A stretch of 34,345 nt of DNA from SAR92 bacterium BACL16 MAG-120619-bin48 (GTDB lineage Bacteria > Pseudomonadota > Gammaproteobacteria > Pseudomonadales > Porticoccaceae), in assembly GCA_001438605.1 (NCBI GenBank), contig LIDE01000011.1, forward strand, positions 1-34,345, written 5' to 3'. The position numbers and the translations under genes were made by a program. The notes under the pieces are model-generated. The model did not search any database, had not been told where the DNA came from, and saw only the letters and a list, made by a program, of their open reading frames with translations. Shown one piece after another: positions 1-4,690 of this stretch (positions within the stretch are counted from its first letter, which is position 1; every line of letters starts with the position of its first letter).

Positions 1-1503
1 TTTGAAGCGTTAATGGTGAATATTCTGCTCTGCACGTTGTTTTCCATTTTCGGTAGCATGAACCGAGAGGAGAAGCTGTTTGCGCGGCTATGCATGGTCG
101 ATAACATTTACATACCCGCCAGAGTCGAGCTCGCCCAAGCCTCGGTGGCTGAGATGACGGAAAGCCTCCGCCGCGCCCTTGGTACAGAGGCAGATGTCGA
201 AATTGAACACGCGCTATCCGCCCTCGATCTGACCCATAGCGAAACTCGGCCTGCCGCTTTGCGAAAAATTCGCGACCATATCAACTCTTCCCTGAATATG
301 CGGCTCGGTATTTTGGCCACCTATCGGATCATGGAAAAGTGCATTCCCTTGACCACAACCAGCCACCAAGAACCTGACGATATTTATATGATTGAGTCGG
401 TGGTGGCGATCCACAGCGACAGGCTCACCGGTATTGCCAGTGAGTTAAATAAACTGCGCATTCACCACCGTGAAATTCTCGACAATCTTCCGATTGGCCT
501 TATTGCGATTGGACAGAGCGGCGCCATCCTCAAGTGGAACAGCACCATGGCCACCTACACTGGCATCGATGCTGAATCGGCCAGTGGCGTACTAGTGGGC
601 AGCCTGCCTGAACCGTGGGGGTCGCAGCTAAACCAATTTGCCAGTGGCGCAGAGCGCGCAATCGAAAATCTGCGTATTGATATCGACGGCGAGACACGCT
701 GGTTCAACCTGCAAAAGTCCGTCGATCAAGCCACCGATAACGATGCGATTATATTGATTGAGGACAACAGTAAATCGGTTCTGTTGACGCAAAACTACAT
801 CAACAACGAGCGTCTTGCCTCTGTTGGACGCCTAGCCGCTGGCGTAGCCCATGAGATCGGCAATCCAGTCACTGGCATTGCTTGTCTCGCGCAGAATTTG
901 CAGCATGAAACCGACGCCAGTGAAATTGAAAAATCTGCTGAATTGATTTTGTCGCAAACCAATCGCATCAATCTAATTGTGCAGTCACTGATCAATTTCT
1001 CCCGCGGCGACCGCAGCTACGAGAATGCCTTAGAGTTAGTGAATGTGCGGGAGATAGCCGAACAAGCCATTCAATTACTGCAACTGTCCAATCAACACGC
1101 CAGCCAACAATTTGTCTGTCATGTGAGTCCCGAGCTGGAAATTGTCAGCGATCGCCACCAGCTTGTGCAGGTATTTTTAAATCTGCTGAGCAATGCGCGA
1201 GATGCGTCTCCAGAACACAGCGAAGTCACTATCAGCGCAGAGCGCAGCGACAGCAGAATTACCATTATGGTGAGCGATGCCGGCACGGGCATCCCGGACG
1301 ATATCCAAGCGCGAATTTTCGAGCCCTTTGTCACATCGAAAGAGCCCGGGGATGGCACTGGCTTGGGGCTTTGGATTGTTTTTCATCTCGTAAAAGCGCT
1401 CGGTGGTGAAATCAACCTGTCCAGCCCTGCGGTAAACAGTGACCGCGGCACGACGGCGCGACTCCATTTTGCGGTTGTCGATCAGCACACGGCCCATCAG
1501 TGA
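1..1503 (+). CDS. cbrA: CbrA-like sensor histidine kinase, 3' part (5' end outside window)
   Basis: The reading frame is open to the first base of the window, so the ATG at 13 is not the true start; the gene begins further left. The first ~20 residues are hydrophobic and end in a basic/acidic turn, as at the end of the SLC5-type transporter domain that CbrA kinases carry at their N-terminus; this is inference because the rest is missing. Counting from the Met at 13, a PAS domain lies near residues 155-245, the phospho-acceptor His is residue 280 (motif AAGVAHEIGNP), the N-box is around FLNLLSNARDAS, and the ATP-binding boxes read DAGTGIPDD and GTGLGLWIV. CbrA in Pseudomonas senses the carbon/nitrogen state and phosphorylates CbrB. 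The next gene is an NtrC-type regulator and pcnB-folK follow, the known cbrAB context. Confidence 0.85.
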   Translation, partial: FEALMVNILLCTLFSIFGSMNREEKLFARLCMVDNIYIPARVELAQASVAEMTESLRRALGTEADVEIEHALSALDLTHSETRPAALRKIRDHINSSLNMRLGILATYRIMEKCIPLTTTSHQEPDDIYMIESVVAIHSDRLTGIASELNKLRIHHREILDNLPIGLIAIGQSGAILKWNSTMATYTGIDAESASGVLVGSLPEPWGSQLNQFASGAERAIENLRIDIDGETRWFNLQKSVDQATDNDAIILIEDNSKSVLLTQNYINNERLASVGRLAAGVAHEIGNPVTGIACLAQNLQHETDASEIEKSAELILSQTNRINLIVQSLINFSRGDRSYENALELVNVREIAEQAIQLLQLSNQHASQQFVCHVSPELEIVSDRHQLVQVFLNLLSNARDASPEHSEVTISAERSDSRITIMVSDAGTGIPDDIQARIFEPFVTSKEPGDGTGLGLWIVFHLVKALGGEINLSSPAVNSDRGTTARLHFAVVDQHTAHQ

Positions 1504-1585
1504 ACCCGGGAATTCGACGAGTGCCTTGTATCGCAGGGACTTCGGAGTAACAATAGCGTCCGCCTTTACAAATACCGCATATGCT

Positions 1586-2896
1586 ATGAGCAACTCGCCA
1601 ACAACACACCACATACTCATTGTTGAAGACGAAGAAATTATTCGTTCTTCGCTGCGCAAATTGCTTGAGCGCAACGGTTATAGTGTCAGCGATGCGGTGA
1701 GCATTAAAGCTGCCCGCGAGACGTTTGATTTTTCAATATTCTCGCTTGTTATTAGCGACCTGCGCCTACCAGGACAACCAGGGACAGATCTTATTCAGCT
1801 TGCCGAGCCGGTACCCGTGCTGATCATGACTAGCTATGCAAGCTTGCGTTCCGCCGTAGAGACCATGCGCCAAGGGGCCGTCGACTATATTTCAAAACCC
1901 TTTGATCACGACGAAATGCTGGCCGCGGTAGAGCGGATTGTCAGCAGCGATCGATCGTTATTATCAGCATTGCAAACTCAACCACACAATTTAGCGCTTG
2001 CAGGCACGAGCAGTGCGATTACAAAAGTTCAACACCTGATCTCAAAAGTAGCGAGCACAGACGCTGCCGTTATGATTATCGGTGAGACCGGCAGCGGTAA
2101 ATCATCTGTCGCCATGGCCATTCATCACGCCAGCCAGCGCTGCGAACAACCCTTTGTCACCGTCAATTGCGCCTCTCTCAACGAAAGCGAGTTAGCCGTG
2201 CTGGCTGAGCGCTGCAGCGCTGTAGGAACACTCTTTTTGCAGAACATTGGCGAGCTGCCATTACCCTTACAGCCACTGCTGTTGCGCGCGCTGGAAAGCT
2301 GTCAATGCCGCCTGATTAGCTCCGCTGACTCTCAGCTAGAAAAGCTCTTAGCGGCGCAGCTATTCCGCAAAGACCTCTACTACCGACTGACTGTTGTGAC
2401 TATACCCATGCCCTGCCTAGATCAGCGCCGCGAAGACATCCCGCTCCTCGCTGATCTTATTCTGCGCAACTGCAGTAGCAATGCAGGCCTCGATAGCGAT
2501 GCCATTGAGGCATTAAGCCACCACTCATGGCCGGGGAATCTATTGCAGCTGCGCAATACGCTGCAGCAGGCGGCTATTTTGGCAGAGCCAGACACTCCTT
2601 TAAGCGCAGCGCAGATTGGTATTGAAAGTGTCGCTGCATCTAAGGCTTCGATCGGCCCGCACTTTTCGCTTCGACCGAGCAATGAATCATTTGACGATGC
2701 ACCGGCGGGATTATCTCTTGAAGACTACTTCACTCGGTTTGTTCTTGAAAACCAAGAGAATATGAGTGAAACAGACCTCGCCAAAAAGCTCGGCATCAGT
2801 CGCAAAAGCCTGTGGGAACGGCGCAAAAAGCTGGGTATTGGCAGGAAAAAAGGCCACGACACGTCTGATAGAGCGTCGGCTACCGAAAAAAACTAA
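1586..2896 (+). CDS. cbrB: CbrB-like response regulator with degenerate AAA+ domain
   Basis: A 436-residue regulator, started at ATG 1586 because the receiver begins directly after it (HILIVEDEE); the longer open frame upstream overlaps the kinase. Receiver: acidic pair at 14-16, phospho-acceptor D58 (ISDLRLPG), T82 and K104. The central AAA+ domain keeps Walker A (GETGSGKS, 166-173) and the FRKDLYYRL and RREDIPLL blocks, but the Walker B position reads GTLFLQNIG, with Q219-N220 where D-E is usual. The segment between NCASLNESEL and GTLFL is only about ten residues, so the GAFTGA sigma54-contact loop is absent. The C-terminus (about 378-421) is a Fis-type helix-turn-helix (LAKKLGISRKSLWERRKKLG). 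Regulators of this family lacking GAFTGA (HupR, TyrR, Rhodobacter NtrC) act with sigma70, so this one probably does not activate sigma54. The frame is intact, so it is not a frameshifted gene. Symbol rests on synteny. Confidence 0.85.
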   Translation: MSNSPTTHHILIVEDEEIIRSSLRKLLERNGYSVSDAVSIKAARETFDFSIFSLVISDLRLPGQPGTDLIQLAEPVPVLIMTSYASLRSAVETMRQGAVDYISKPFDHDEMLAAVERIVSSDRSLLSALQTQPHNLALAGTSSAITKVQHLISKVASTDAAVMIIGETGSGKSSVAMAIHHASQRCEQPFVTVNCASLNESELAVLAERCSAVGTLFLQNIGELPLPLQPLLLRALESCQCRLISSADSQLEKLLAAQLFRKDLYYRLTVVTIPMPCLDQRREDIPLLADLILRNCSSNAGLDSDAIEALSHHSWPGNLLQLRNTLQQAAILAEPDTPLSAAQIGIESVAASKASIGPHFSLRPSNESFDDAPAGLSLEDYFTRFVLENQENMSETDLAKKLGISRKSLWERRKKLGIGRKKGHDTSDRASATEKN

Positions 2897-2919: not shown

Positions 2920-2947
2920 TTGAACAACCTAATTTTTCCGATACAAT
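2920..2947 (+). promoter_or_regulatory. Predicted sigma70 promoter of the crcZ-position RNA
   Basis: TTGAAC at 2920-2925 and TACAAT at 2942-2947 are separated by 16 nt. The predicted transcription start is near 2954, directly in front of the first hairpin of the RNA candidate. No sigma54 (GG-N10-GC) promoter was recognised in the gap. Confidence 0.55.
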
Positions 2948-2953
2948 CGAGCG

Positions 2954-3110
2954 CAAGAAGCCTTGGAGCTTCTGTAAAAATAATAACGAATAACAATAAT
3001 ATCTGGATGGATACAAGAAGGGTTCTACGTGGCTTAAAACAAGATTATCTTGAATTTAAGTACTCGTCTGGGAACCATTGAGGGGGGTCGTCTTCGGGCG
3101 CCCCTTATTT
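2954..3110 (+). ncRNA. Candidate CrcZ-like small RNA (about 155 nt)
   Basis: The gap between the CbrB-like gene and pcnB is where Pseudomonas encodes CrcZ, the RNA that sequesters Hfq/Crc and relieves catabolite repression. Directly visible elements, in order: a hairpin AGAAGC/GCTTCT at 2956-2973; an A-rich single-stranded stretch with three AANAANAA matches (2979-2986, 2989-2996, 2992-2999), the consensus of Hfq/Crc targets; a nested hairpin 3021-3076 (GGTTC/GAACC, ACG/CGT, CTTAAA/TTTAAG, CAAGA/TCTTG); and a GC-rich hairpin with UUCG loop at 3082-3106. A promoter sits just upstream. It is shorter than Pseudomonas CrcZ (about 400 nt), and no sequence similarity to it can be claimed here. Function is inferred from position and motifs; an unrelated Hfq-binding RNA is the main alternative. 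Confidence 0.55.
3082..3110 (+). terminator. UUCG-capped intrinsic terminator of the RNA candidate
   Basis: The stem runs from 3082 to 3106 with the loop TTCG at 3093-3096. It has about ten pairs, including GGGG/CCCC and CGTC/GGCG with one bulged T at 3088, followed by the weak T-rich run TTATTT. A UUCG loop on a GC stem is typical of RNA terminators. Confidence 0.55.
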
Positions 3111-3331
3111 ACTTTCAGCTTTGCCTTCTGCTTTACTTTCAACTTTGATGTCAGCTCTGCTGGCAGCCAAGACTTTCAACGTTTCACACCCCTTCTGCTG
3201 GTAGTTTCTGCTTCATTTTTTTATAAATAATTTAAACGCGTATAGTTTACTTTTTTATCTTAATTTCGCGTCGCTCTCGATCCTCTGTTAAACTCCGGCC
3301 ACATACAACAACTCTAATTGGCAATCACTTA
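3111..3331. other. Pyrimidine-rich pcnB leader region
   Basis: No gene is seen here. The plus strand is strikingly C/T-rich from about 3111 to 3222, with TTCTGCT-like words recurring near 3125, 3193 and 3206. An AT-rich block follows (3215-3262) containing TATAGT at 3241-3246, a possible -10 for pcnB without a clear -35. No strong Shine-Dalgarno precedes pcnB. Confidence 0.4.
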
Positions 3332-4690
3332 ATGCTGGAGCGCATAAGCAGATTTCTCAAAAAAAATCTCAAGTCTAAACCAGATGCAACGCACTACATC
3401 TTCGGCCCGAGCGAACACTCGCTTACCCCTGCGATGATCAATCGCAATGCCCGCAGTATTGTTGATGTTTTGCAGAAAGCAGGCTTTGAAGCCTATGTGG
3501 TGGGCGGATGCGTGCGCGACCTGCTTCTTGATCTAGAGCCGAAAGACTTCGATGTCGCCACCAGCGCGCGTCCTTGGGAAGTTAAATCGCTGTTTCGACG
3601 CTCGCGCATTATTGGCCGTCGCTTCCAAATCGTGCACGTTCAATTTGGCCGCGAAATTATCGAAGTCACCACGTTTCGCTCAAACGACGAAGAGAGCAGC
3701 AATAAAAACCATCGTCAGCAGACAGATAGCGGCATGTTGACCCGTGACAATGTTTTTGGATCCGTAATCGAAGATGCTTCACGCCGCGATCTCACGGTCA
3801 ATGCGCTTTATTACGACCCCAGCGACAACACCATCCACGATTTCACCCACGGACTGGATGATATAGACGACAGTATTATTCGCATCATTGGCGACCCAGC
3901 GACGCGCTTTCGCGAAGACCCCGTGCGCATGCTGCGCGTTGCGCGCTTTGCCGCCAAGCTCGGCTTTCAAATTGAGTCTGCCACCGCCACACCGATGCGC
4001 CACCGCGCCGCCGATTTGCGCCAGATATCAGCGCCGCGACTGTTCGACGAAACATTGAAATTATTTATGACTGGCAATGCCGTCGCCACTTTTCAACTGC
4101 TTCTTGAGCATAAGCTCTTTGACTATATTGTTCCGCAGCTGGCACCCATGCTGAACGATCAAAACGGCATACCGTTAAAGTTGATTACTCAAGCTTTTAC
4201 CAACACAGATATCCGCATTCAATCGGACCAGCGCGTCGCGCCAGCGTTTATTTATGCAGCCCTGCTCTGGCCGGTCGTGCAAAAACTGGCGAAAACTTAC
4301 GAGAAAAATGGCAACTCACCGCCCTACGCCCTAAGTAAAGCCGCGGGTGAAGTGACCGCCAGACAAATTGAGGTGACCGCAATACCGAAGCGTTTCACGA
4401 TTCCCATGCGAGAAATTTGGGATCTCCAGCAGCACATGCTGCGCCGCGGCGGCAATCGCGTTCAGCGTTTAATGGAACATCCCCGTTTCCGCGCCGCCTA
4501 TGATTTTGTGCTGCTCAGAGAACAGTCTGGTGAAAACCTCGATGGCTTGGGCGCTTGGTGGACAGCCTATCAGAGCGCTGATGAACAGTCTCAAGAGAAG
4601 ATGGCGGAAGAGACGTCGGCAACCAGCGGCAACTACAAGCGCTCGCGACGCCGGCGCAACAGCAAGCGCCAGACCACCGATTCAGAATAG
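3332..4690 (+). CDS. pcnB: Poly(A) polymerase I
   Basis: A 452-residue class II nucleotidyltransferase that adds 3' poly(A) tails to RNA and so promotes decay by exonucleases. The nucleotidyltransferase core shows GGCVRDLLL (58-66) and the metal-binding pair D72/D74 in DFDVAT. RRDLTVNALYYD and the EDPVRMLRVARFAAKLGF block identify the RNA-binding/head region shared with CCA-adding enzymes. The very basic C-terminal tail (KRSRRRRNSKR) is typical of bacterial PcnB and distinguishes it from CCA transferase. folK starts 2 nt after the stop codon, so the two are co-transcribed. The start ATG lacks a convincing ribosome-binding site but fits the family N-terminus. Confidence 0.95.
   Translation: MLERISRFLKKNLKSKPDATHYIFGPSEHSLTPAMINRNARSIVDVLQKAGFEAYVVGGCVRDLLLDLEPKDFDVATSARPWEVKSLFRRSRIIGRRFQIVHVQFGREIIEVTTFRSNDEESSNKNHRQQTDSGMLTRDNVFGSVIEDASRRDLTVNALYYDPSDNTIHDFTHGLDDIDDSIIRIIGDPATRFREDPVRMLRVARFAAKLGFQIESATATPMRHRAADLRQISAPRLFDETLKLFMTGNAVATFQLLLEHKLFDYIVPQLAPMLNDQNGIPLKLITQAFTNTDIRIQSDQRVAPAFIYAALLWPVVQKLAKTYEKNGNSPPYALSKAAGEVTARQIEVTAIPKRFTIPMREIWDLQQHMLRRGGNRVQRLMEHPRFRAAYDFVLLREQSGENLDGLGAWWTAYQSADEQSQEKMAEETSATSGNYKRSRRRRNSKRQTTDSE

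Follow-up and report, generated by a model that had tools for sequence, protein, structure and literature searches.

A compact CrcZ-like RNA gene with a sigma70-type promoter between a degenerate CbrB gene and pcnB in the SAR92 lineage

The window analyzed here, a 34,345-nt stretch of DNA from the genome of a SAR92/Porticoccaceae-type gammaproteobacterium, opens within a gene for a CbrA-type histidine kinase, the 3′ part of which occupies positions 1..1503 of the plus strand and is truncated by the contig start. Pfam recognizes PAS, HisKA, and HATPase domains in it (13-1503); no stop interrupts the frame as far as base 1, and the corresponding open frames of seven relatives from the same group have 961-1001 codons. 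In L032, one of the related loci, Pfam recognized no transporter-like N-terminus in CbrA. Downstream on the same strand (1583..2896) lies a gene for a CbrB-like response regulator of 437 aa, assigned by Pfam and alignments and with an uncertain start codon, in which Pfam distinguishes a receiver, an AAA+ remnant, and a Fis-type helix-turn-helix (HTH). As in a CbrB orthologue, this protein retains the receiver Asp and the HTH, cbrA lies upstream, and pcnB, encoding poly(A) polymerase (3332..4690, plus strand; Pfam), lies downstream. A first-pass annotation of this DNA had placed a small RNA between the CbrB-like gene and pcnB, in the position of crcZ in Pseudomonas, and comparison with relatives bears that position out.

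The gap between the two genes contains, all on the plus strand, a −35 element TTGAAC (2920..2925), recognized from the sequence and from comparison with relatives, a −10 element TACAAT (2942..2947) separated from it by a 16-nt spacer, both where the first-pass annotation had read them, and an RNA gene of about 155 nt (2954..3110) supported by a match to our covariance model R2 and by folding. The −10 element and the model indicate the probable 5′ end of the RNA and the terminator its 3′ end, with a promoter-to-terminator span of approximately 152-157 nt. The RNA is predicted to begin with a hairpin (2956..2973), followed by an A-rich single-stranded segment with two (ARN)4 runs that are candidate Hfq distal-face sites (2976..3000), a conserved core, GGAUGGAU (3005..3012; alignment A1), which is GGAUGGAUUGCGAAAG-like in many relatives, a central nested hairpin (3021..3076), and an intrinsic terminator hairpin (3079..3107). 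Folding placed the nested hairpin at exactly the coordinates previously proposed for it and also returned the 5′ and terminator hairpins, and the compact size suggested earlier agrees with the R2 match, the fold, and the relatives. Closer to pcnB, the gap sequences point to TGTTAAACT (3287..3295) as the probable −10 region of the pcnB promoter, an element that persists in relatives without the RNA. A 14-base stretch at approximately 2904-2917 of the window is also found, identical, upstream of the RNA in L010, although the two species are well diverged.

By comparison of sequences, the cbrB-pcnB gap holds a conserved RNA gene. The window RNA folds with a minimum free energy of −43.7 (z −2.9), a value equalled by 2 of 200 shuffles, and its signal rises above chance mainly through conservation, that is, through the match of a model from which it was held out and through covariation. 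The same RNA unit occupies the cbrB-pcnB gap of relatives whose CbrB proteins are 45-61% identical. R2, trained on 13 relatives with the window held out, matches positions 2954-3114 with 59.2 bits (E 5e-8, 80 sources searched), a covariance search across related genomes being one of the checks suggested with the first-pass annotation. Across the 13 relatives, without the window, 94.2% of the cells of a four-helix structure are paired, versus 40-56% when the partners are slid, and 11 of 25 base pairs have changed on both sides; the 5′ hairpin, the central hairpin, and the terminator of the window correspond to helix 1, which has such two-sided changes, helices 2 and 3, and helix 4, respectively. 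The covariation score exceeded all 500 shuffles, while 7 of the 500 equalled the count of two-sided changes; these shuffles leave the relatedness of the sequences in place. Helix 2 is weak (80.8% paired), and one particular pair in it is broken in 8 of the 13 relatives. The central hairpin of the window is longer than its counterpart in 13 of the 18 A1 relatives. The pattern scanner flagged no terminator here on the plus strand. The T tract of the window terminator is interrupted by an A, as in L002, and at least four consecutive T follow the stem in 17 of the 18 A1 relatives. No Rfam family matched the gap at its gathering score, with only sub-threshold matches (E up to 10).

The A-rich segment is the part of the RNA that suggests a function. 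Its motifs had been noticed earlier and counted as three; the motifs stand, and their number is four overlapping matches to AANAANAA in two clusters (starting at 2976, 2979, 2989, and 2992). Together they make up the (ARN)4 runs at 2976-2987 and 2989-3000, with eight ARN triplets, a total matched by 0.24% of mono-nucleotide shuffles of the RNA. Runs of (ARN)n with n of at least 4 are present in 70 of 72 RNAs, the exceptions being L131 and L146 (160 bases read). Within the runs, the positions that are invariant in A1 are the first two of each ARN triplet, giving a period-three conservation of A, and this is the pattern of a ligand of the Hfq distal face, to which the RNA would presumably bind. 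In P. aeruginosa, according to the accessible text of PMC4063720, CrcZ titrates Hfq by means of (ARN)n runs, of which it has six. An Hfq gene is present in 107 of 112 genomes of the family, that of the window included, and the five without one are all less than 90% complete. Residues could be read in 19 of 20 Hfq stretches (G008 gave none), and the NGIKLQGQ segment is kept in all 19 proteins. The idea that loss of Crc was tied to an altered distal face of Hfq was rejected, as Phe25 is present in 19/19 Hfq proteins from genomes with and without Crc.

The RNA is widespread in the family. R2 matches at E<=0.01 occur in 72 of 112 genomes and 8 of 14 genera, and in the window's genus 37 of the 50 genomes are matched at E<=3e-6; weak-only matches in five further genomes of that genus were all read as terminators and set aside. 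Outside the family, R2 gave only weak matches (E 0.02 to 2). Twenty further R2 loci were fetched, and pcnB lies downstream in all of them; tblastn at E 1e-4 detected neither cbrA nor cbrB in these stretches, one of which (L175) begins close to the RNA and leaves its upstream side outside the sequence. In genus g32, five of seven genomes have two R2 matches in tandem, which in L167-L169 lie upstream of pcnB with no CbrB nearby. Twelve weak R2 places outside the pcnB locus, considered as possible second copies, resemble ordinary terminators and were rejected; by eye, several of them follow genes with an outer-membrane-receptor-like C-terminus. HTCC2207 (which we take to be SAR92), MOLA455, and their kin (L003-L005, L031-L033, L111-L116) gave no R2 match in the locus. 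The gap of this clade, which is close to the window's branch and retains CbrAB and the pcnB promoter-like element, measures 89 bases (166 in L115 and 124 in L116). In a PcnB tree, which omits L003 and L116 for their short PcnB, the RNA-less L115 branches outside the RNA-bearing L002, so the RNA may have been lost more than once.

The CbrB protein encoded next to the RNA has changed as well. In alignments, the window CbrB lacks both marks of a sigma54 enhancer-binding protein, the GAFTGA loop and an intact Walker B DE pair, with an 18-column gap at GAFTGA and another gap of 13 columns. All CbrBs of the genus with a readable AAA+ region are without GAFTGA. The Walker B DE is not intact in any of 43 aligned GAFTGA-less CbrBs, a set that includes near-duplicates and two proteins of g29; D is retained in L134 and L135, and RD is found in L021, L025, L029, and L138. 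The receiver Asp and the HTH are retained in these proteins. Among 36 comparison proteins with a GAFTGA-type loop, DE is kept in 35, and the remaining one (L133) is frame-split. In nine loci (L122-L124, L126-L130, and L131) the AAA+ domain is gone altogether, leaving open frames of 184-234 codons with a receiver, which Pfam detects in L122, and an HTH. These receiver-HTH proteins occur at four places of the PcnB tree (L122-L124, L126-L127, g35, and L131). RpoN itself is encoded in 107 of 112 family genomes, and the five without it are all less than 80% complete.

The promoter class of the RNA appears to have changed in step with the decay of CbrB, as far as comparison of the loci indicates. 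Taken alone, the window pair TTGAAC-16-TACAAT (9/12) is at chance level, with one match found and 1.1 expected in shuffles, and the best sigma54 site of the window gap scores 5/10, short of a −24/−12 element. We counted as a sigma54 site any match of at least 8/10 with GG and GC fixed, for which the shuffled rate is 2-8%. Among the matches listed, such a site is present in 89 of 92 gaps with a GAFTGA-type CbrB (Pseudomonas-type, 51/51; other families, 23/26; same family, 15/15) and in 2 of 52 gaps without a GAFTGA-type loop (L009 and L131), counts that are not independent, as many of the loci are close relatives taken from best-match lists. The loci with GAFTGA and no sigma54 site are L022, L030, and L039. 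The site in L009 looks like chance, while L131 (G117 C20) is a true exception, in which the AAA+ domain is gone, the sigma54 site is kept, and the sister CbrBs have GAFTGA; its AAA+ loss is perhaps recent.

Sigma70-like pairs follow the opposite distribution. RNA 5′ ends were scored in the 72 loci with an R2 match or an aligned RNA start; the scoring excludes L175, whose upstream side is cut by the contig end, L133 and L145, which gave no R2 match, and the RNA-less loci. Of the 39 loci with a decayed CbrB, L131 apart, 35 have a pair of at least 8/12 at the 5′ end of the RNA, the other four having no good pair; the corresponding numbers are 2 of 13 for an intact CbrB and 14 of 19 where no CbrB is nearby, and in these 19 no sigma54 score exceeds 6/10. 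In 30 of the 39 decayed-CbrB loci, the elements of the best pair are 16 nt apart. In the PcnB tree, g1, g29, and g35 form one group (100/97) separate from the sigma54 loci. The CbrB-less g31 loci (L178-L180) fall among sigma54 lineages, with those of g26, g27, and g32 beside them and the sigma54 loci of other families further out, and the position of these CbrB-less loci suggests that the sigma54 site was probably lost separately there. The earlier description of the RNA as a sigma70-driven counterpart of CrcZ is thus upheld for the promoter type, by comparison among relatives, and finds no counterpart in a match to the CrcZ model of Rfam (RF01675).

In some of these loci CbrB may have kept a hold on the RNA. 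The forward subsite of CbrB in P. putida is TGTTAC, accompanied by reverse subsites, in the accessible text of PMC6296734. We searched upstream of the RNA for a dyad TGTTAC-N4..6-GTAACA with a score of at least 10/12 and found it in 18 of 31 loci with a GAFTGA-less CbrB, 7 of 13 with an intact CbrB, 1 of 9 with a receiver-HTH protein (L131), and none of 19 without CbrB nearby. In 16 loci the dyad lies 53, 62-65, or 73-75 bp from the −35 element, distances that fit one face of the helix (R 0.88, P ~0.011 on five values taken as separate). L136 and L137, with no promoter under the pattern used, are omitted from this phase test, and in L134 and L135 the promoter is 11-13 bases away from the expected place. 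The window has no CbrB-type dyad within 220 nt upstream (best 7/12), and none was found in L006, L015-L019, L021, L025, L029, or L138-L140. Given its absence from the window, from those loci, and from 8 of 9 receiver-HTH loci, control by CbrB would not be general.

Crc, the protein partner of CrcZ, was sought with a query from a P. graminis genome (L191), whose best PDB matches are 2myi (524 bits, labeled exodeoxyribonuclease III in its entry) and 4jg3 (481 bits), a catabolite repression control protein. In g24-g28 and g30-g34, 38 of the 43 genomes gave matches of 157-208 bits, the five without one all belonging to g31. In the window's genus and three others (g1, g23, g29, and g35), Crc was detected in none of 69 genomes, any matches scoring 28-45 bits; in the window genome the query reached only 33 bits, and the sole Exo_endo_phos protein found there is exonuclease III. 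A PF03372 search of four g1 genomes returned one protein each, which is exonuclease III in the three compared with PDB (G000, G022, and G008). Crc loss does not account for all of the promoter changes, since g26, g27, and g32 retain Crc. A second Crc-like protein (97-128 bits), possibly a paralogue, occurs beside Crc in G108-G114, G061-G066, and G083.

Taken beyond the first-pass annotation, then, CbrB has lost the sigma54 loop, Crc was not found, and a related RNA follows a sigma54 site in relatives whose CbrB is intact. The explanation that we favor, and hold to be probable, is that the window encodes an Hfq-binding decoy RNA whose ancestor was a CrcZ-like gene under sigma54 control. This explanation is based on sequence comparison, namely on the conservation of the RNA, the type of its promoter, the decay of CbrB, the absence of Crc, and the presence of Hfq; transcription, Hfq binding, decoy action, and CbrB control are steps that we infer. 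A small-RNA gene in its own right, which by its position descends from a CrcZ-like RNA, would be transcribed from a sigma70-type promoter just 3′ of cbrB into an RNA of about 155 nt, with a 5′ hairpin, eight exposed ARN triplets able to fill the distal face of Hfq, and an intrinsic terminator. When abundant, it would occupy Hfq, and mRNAs with A-rich ribosome-binding sites would be freed from Hfq repression. The ancestral RNA would have been under sigma54 and CbrB; in the window's lineage CbrB would have lost sigma54 activation, Crc would have vanished, and the RNA would have shifted to a sigma70 promoter. For some members of the lineage, continued activation of that promoter by CbrB, bound at an upstream TGTTWC-N5-GTAACA dyad, is probable. 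The accessible text of PMC10274813 describes certain GAFTGA-less NtrC proteins that operate at sigma70 promoters.

The decoy reading is favored by the (ARN)n runs with their invariant first two positions and by the precedent of P. aeruginosa CrcZ, as described in PMC4063720. Against it stand the absence of Crc, the partner in CrcZ-regulated repression, the small number of runs, two (ARN)4 versus the six reported for CrcZ in that text, and the nearby HTCC2207/MOLA455 clade, which is without the RNA yet has CbrAB. A pure decoy also leaves the conserved GGAUGGAUUGC core unexplained. That core is the main attraction of a second possibility, the main rival, which we regard as unlikely: a base-pairing, Hfq-dependent sRNA, in which the ARN runs would serve only to load Hfq, and the seed pairing with mRNAs would be the core GGAUGGAUUGCGAAAG together with CAUUGA before the terminator. 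The core is conserved across genera, lies outside the consensus helices, and is not needed by a decoy. However, a search of 50 genomes of the genus found, outside the RNA gene, 6 perfect complements of a 12-nt core, CGCAATCCATCC, compared with 3 for a reversed control, which is no clear enrichment in a test made weak by the short and imperfect nature of real seeds, and the window RNA is itself altered in the UUGCG half of the core.

It is much less probable that the RNA is a pcnB leader or attenuator, that is, the 5′ part of the pcnB mRNA with a regulated terminator. The RNA does lie directly 5′ of pcnB in the loci read, including those without cbrAB, but approximately 220 nt separate its terminator from pcnB, with the distinct −10-like TGTTAAACT that RNA-less relatives retain; the RNA is doubled in tandem in several g32 genomes, and the alignment fold, in itself no test for a competing structure, predicted none. 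That the core encodes a small peptide (AUGGAU...) was rejected as very improbable, since the ATG within the conserved GGATGGAT, where the window frame is open, is missing in L015-L019 and in the L021/L025/L029 groups, and the frame ends after three codons in L120, L131, and L178. Equally hard to credit is a functionless, decaying CrcZ remnant retained by chance, as might be supposed from the loss of Crc and sigma54 control and the lack of the RNA in some close relatives, because compensatory pair changes, period-three conservation of A, and a sigma70-type promoter across diverged genomes are difficult to obtain without selection.

With the Hfq decoy as the preferred reading, a broader history can be sketched, towards which we lean with some reserve. 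CrcZ-like Hfq-decoy RNAs upstream of pcnB would be old and order-wide rather than an invention of Pseudomonas, and that of the SAR92 line would have outlived both Crc and sigma54 control. CbrB, once a sigma54 AAA+ activator, would have become a pseudo-ATPase and later, in some lineages, nothing more than a receiver and an HTH that act through sigma70, with promoter and activator switching class together. CbrAB and the cbrA-cbrB-crcZ order are called exclusive to Pseudomonas and Azotobacter in the accessible parts of a 2022 review (PMC8871633) and a 2018 regulon paper (PMC6296734). In our comparison this arrangement of genes, with ARN-rich RNAs, extends to marine bacteria and to other families of the order. 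In 13 of 14 other-family loci outside the Pseudomonas type, drawn from 19 chosen among sigma54-site loci, (ARN)n runs lie behind the sigma54 site, L028 having none; these RNAs are likened to CrcZ by position and runs, their R2 matches being weak and RF01675 matching none of those given to it. The gaps of L044 and L046, both outside Pseudomonas, have eight ARN runs each downstream of a sigma54 site, often spaced by approximately 37 nt. In the literature searched, with most subscription journals outside its scope, we found no earlier report of CrcZ or a small RNA in SAR92 or of a GAFTGA-less CbrB. The loci thus offer a natural series for how a sigma54-dependent circuit converts to sigma70, with CbrB proteins with and without the AAA+ domain available for direct comparison, and for the role of a CrcZ-type RNA without Crc, which tests if Hfq alone suffices.

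Among known systems, the closest is CrcZ (Rfam RF01675), with CrcY and CrcX, of Pseudomonas and Azotobacter, which has the same cbrA-cbrB-RNA-pcnB order and is resembled also in the (ARN)n runs of n at least 4 and the presence of an Hfq gene in the window genome. CrcZ, however, measures 407 nt, has a sigma54/CbrB promoter, and has Crc as a partner, whereas the window RNA has about 155 nt and a sigma70-type promoter, and Crc was not detected in its genome. RF01675 found four of four Pseudomonas-type loci (140-328 bits) and none of the 16 other loci given to it, and it has no match in the window, in the rest of its genome, or in 14 control genomes. The window RNA is a CrcZ-like positional homologue that falls outside CrcZ proper by its length, its lack of sigma54 control, and the Rfam model. 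The window CbrB resembles the GAFTGA-less NtrC of Rhodobacter capsulatus and Caulobacter, VpsR, HupR, and TyrR, NtrC-type proteins in which the sigma54-contact loop is missing; the missing loop is described in the accessible text of PMC3162934, and action at sigma70 promoters is reported for NtrC proteins and VpsR in that of PMC10274813. In contrast to GAFTGA-less NtrC and VpsR, the loss in CbrB is accompanied by loss of the Walker B pair, extends in several lineages to the entire AAA+ domain, and is paired with a change of promoter type at a linked RNA gene. Finally, the decoy logic, in which repeated short motifs fill a global RNA-binding protein, is common to CsrB and RsmZ, to which CrcZ is likened as a protein-titrating RNA in the accessible text of PMC4063720; CsrB and RsmZ titrate CsrA and RsmA, whereas the window RNA would titrate Hfq.
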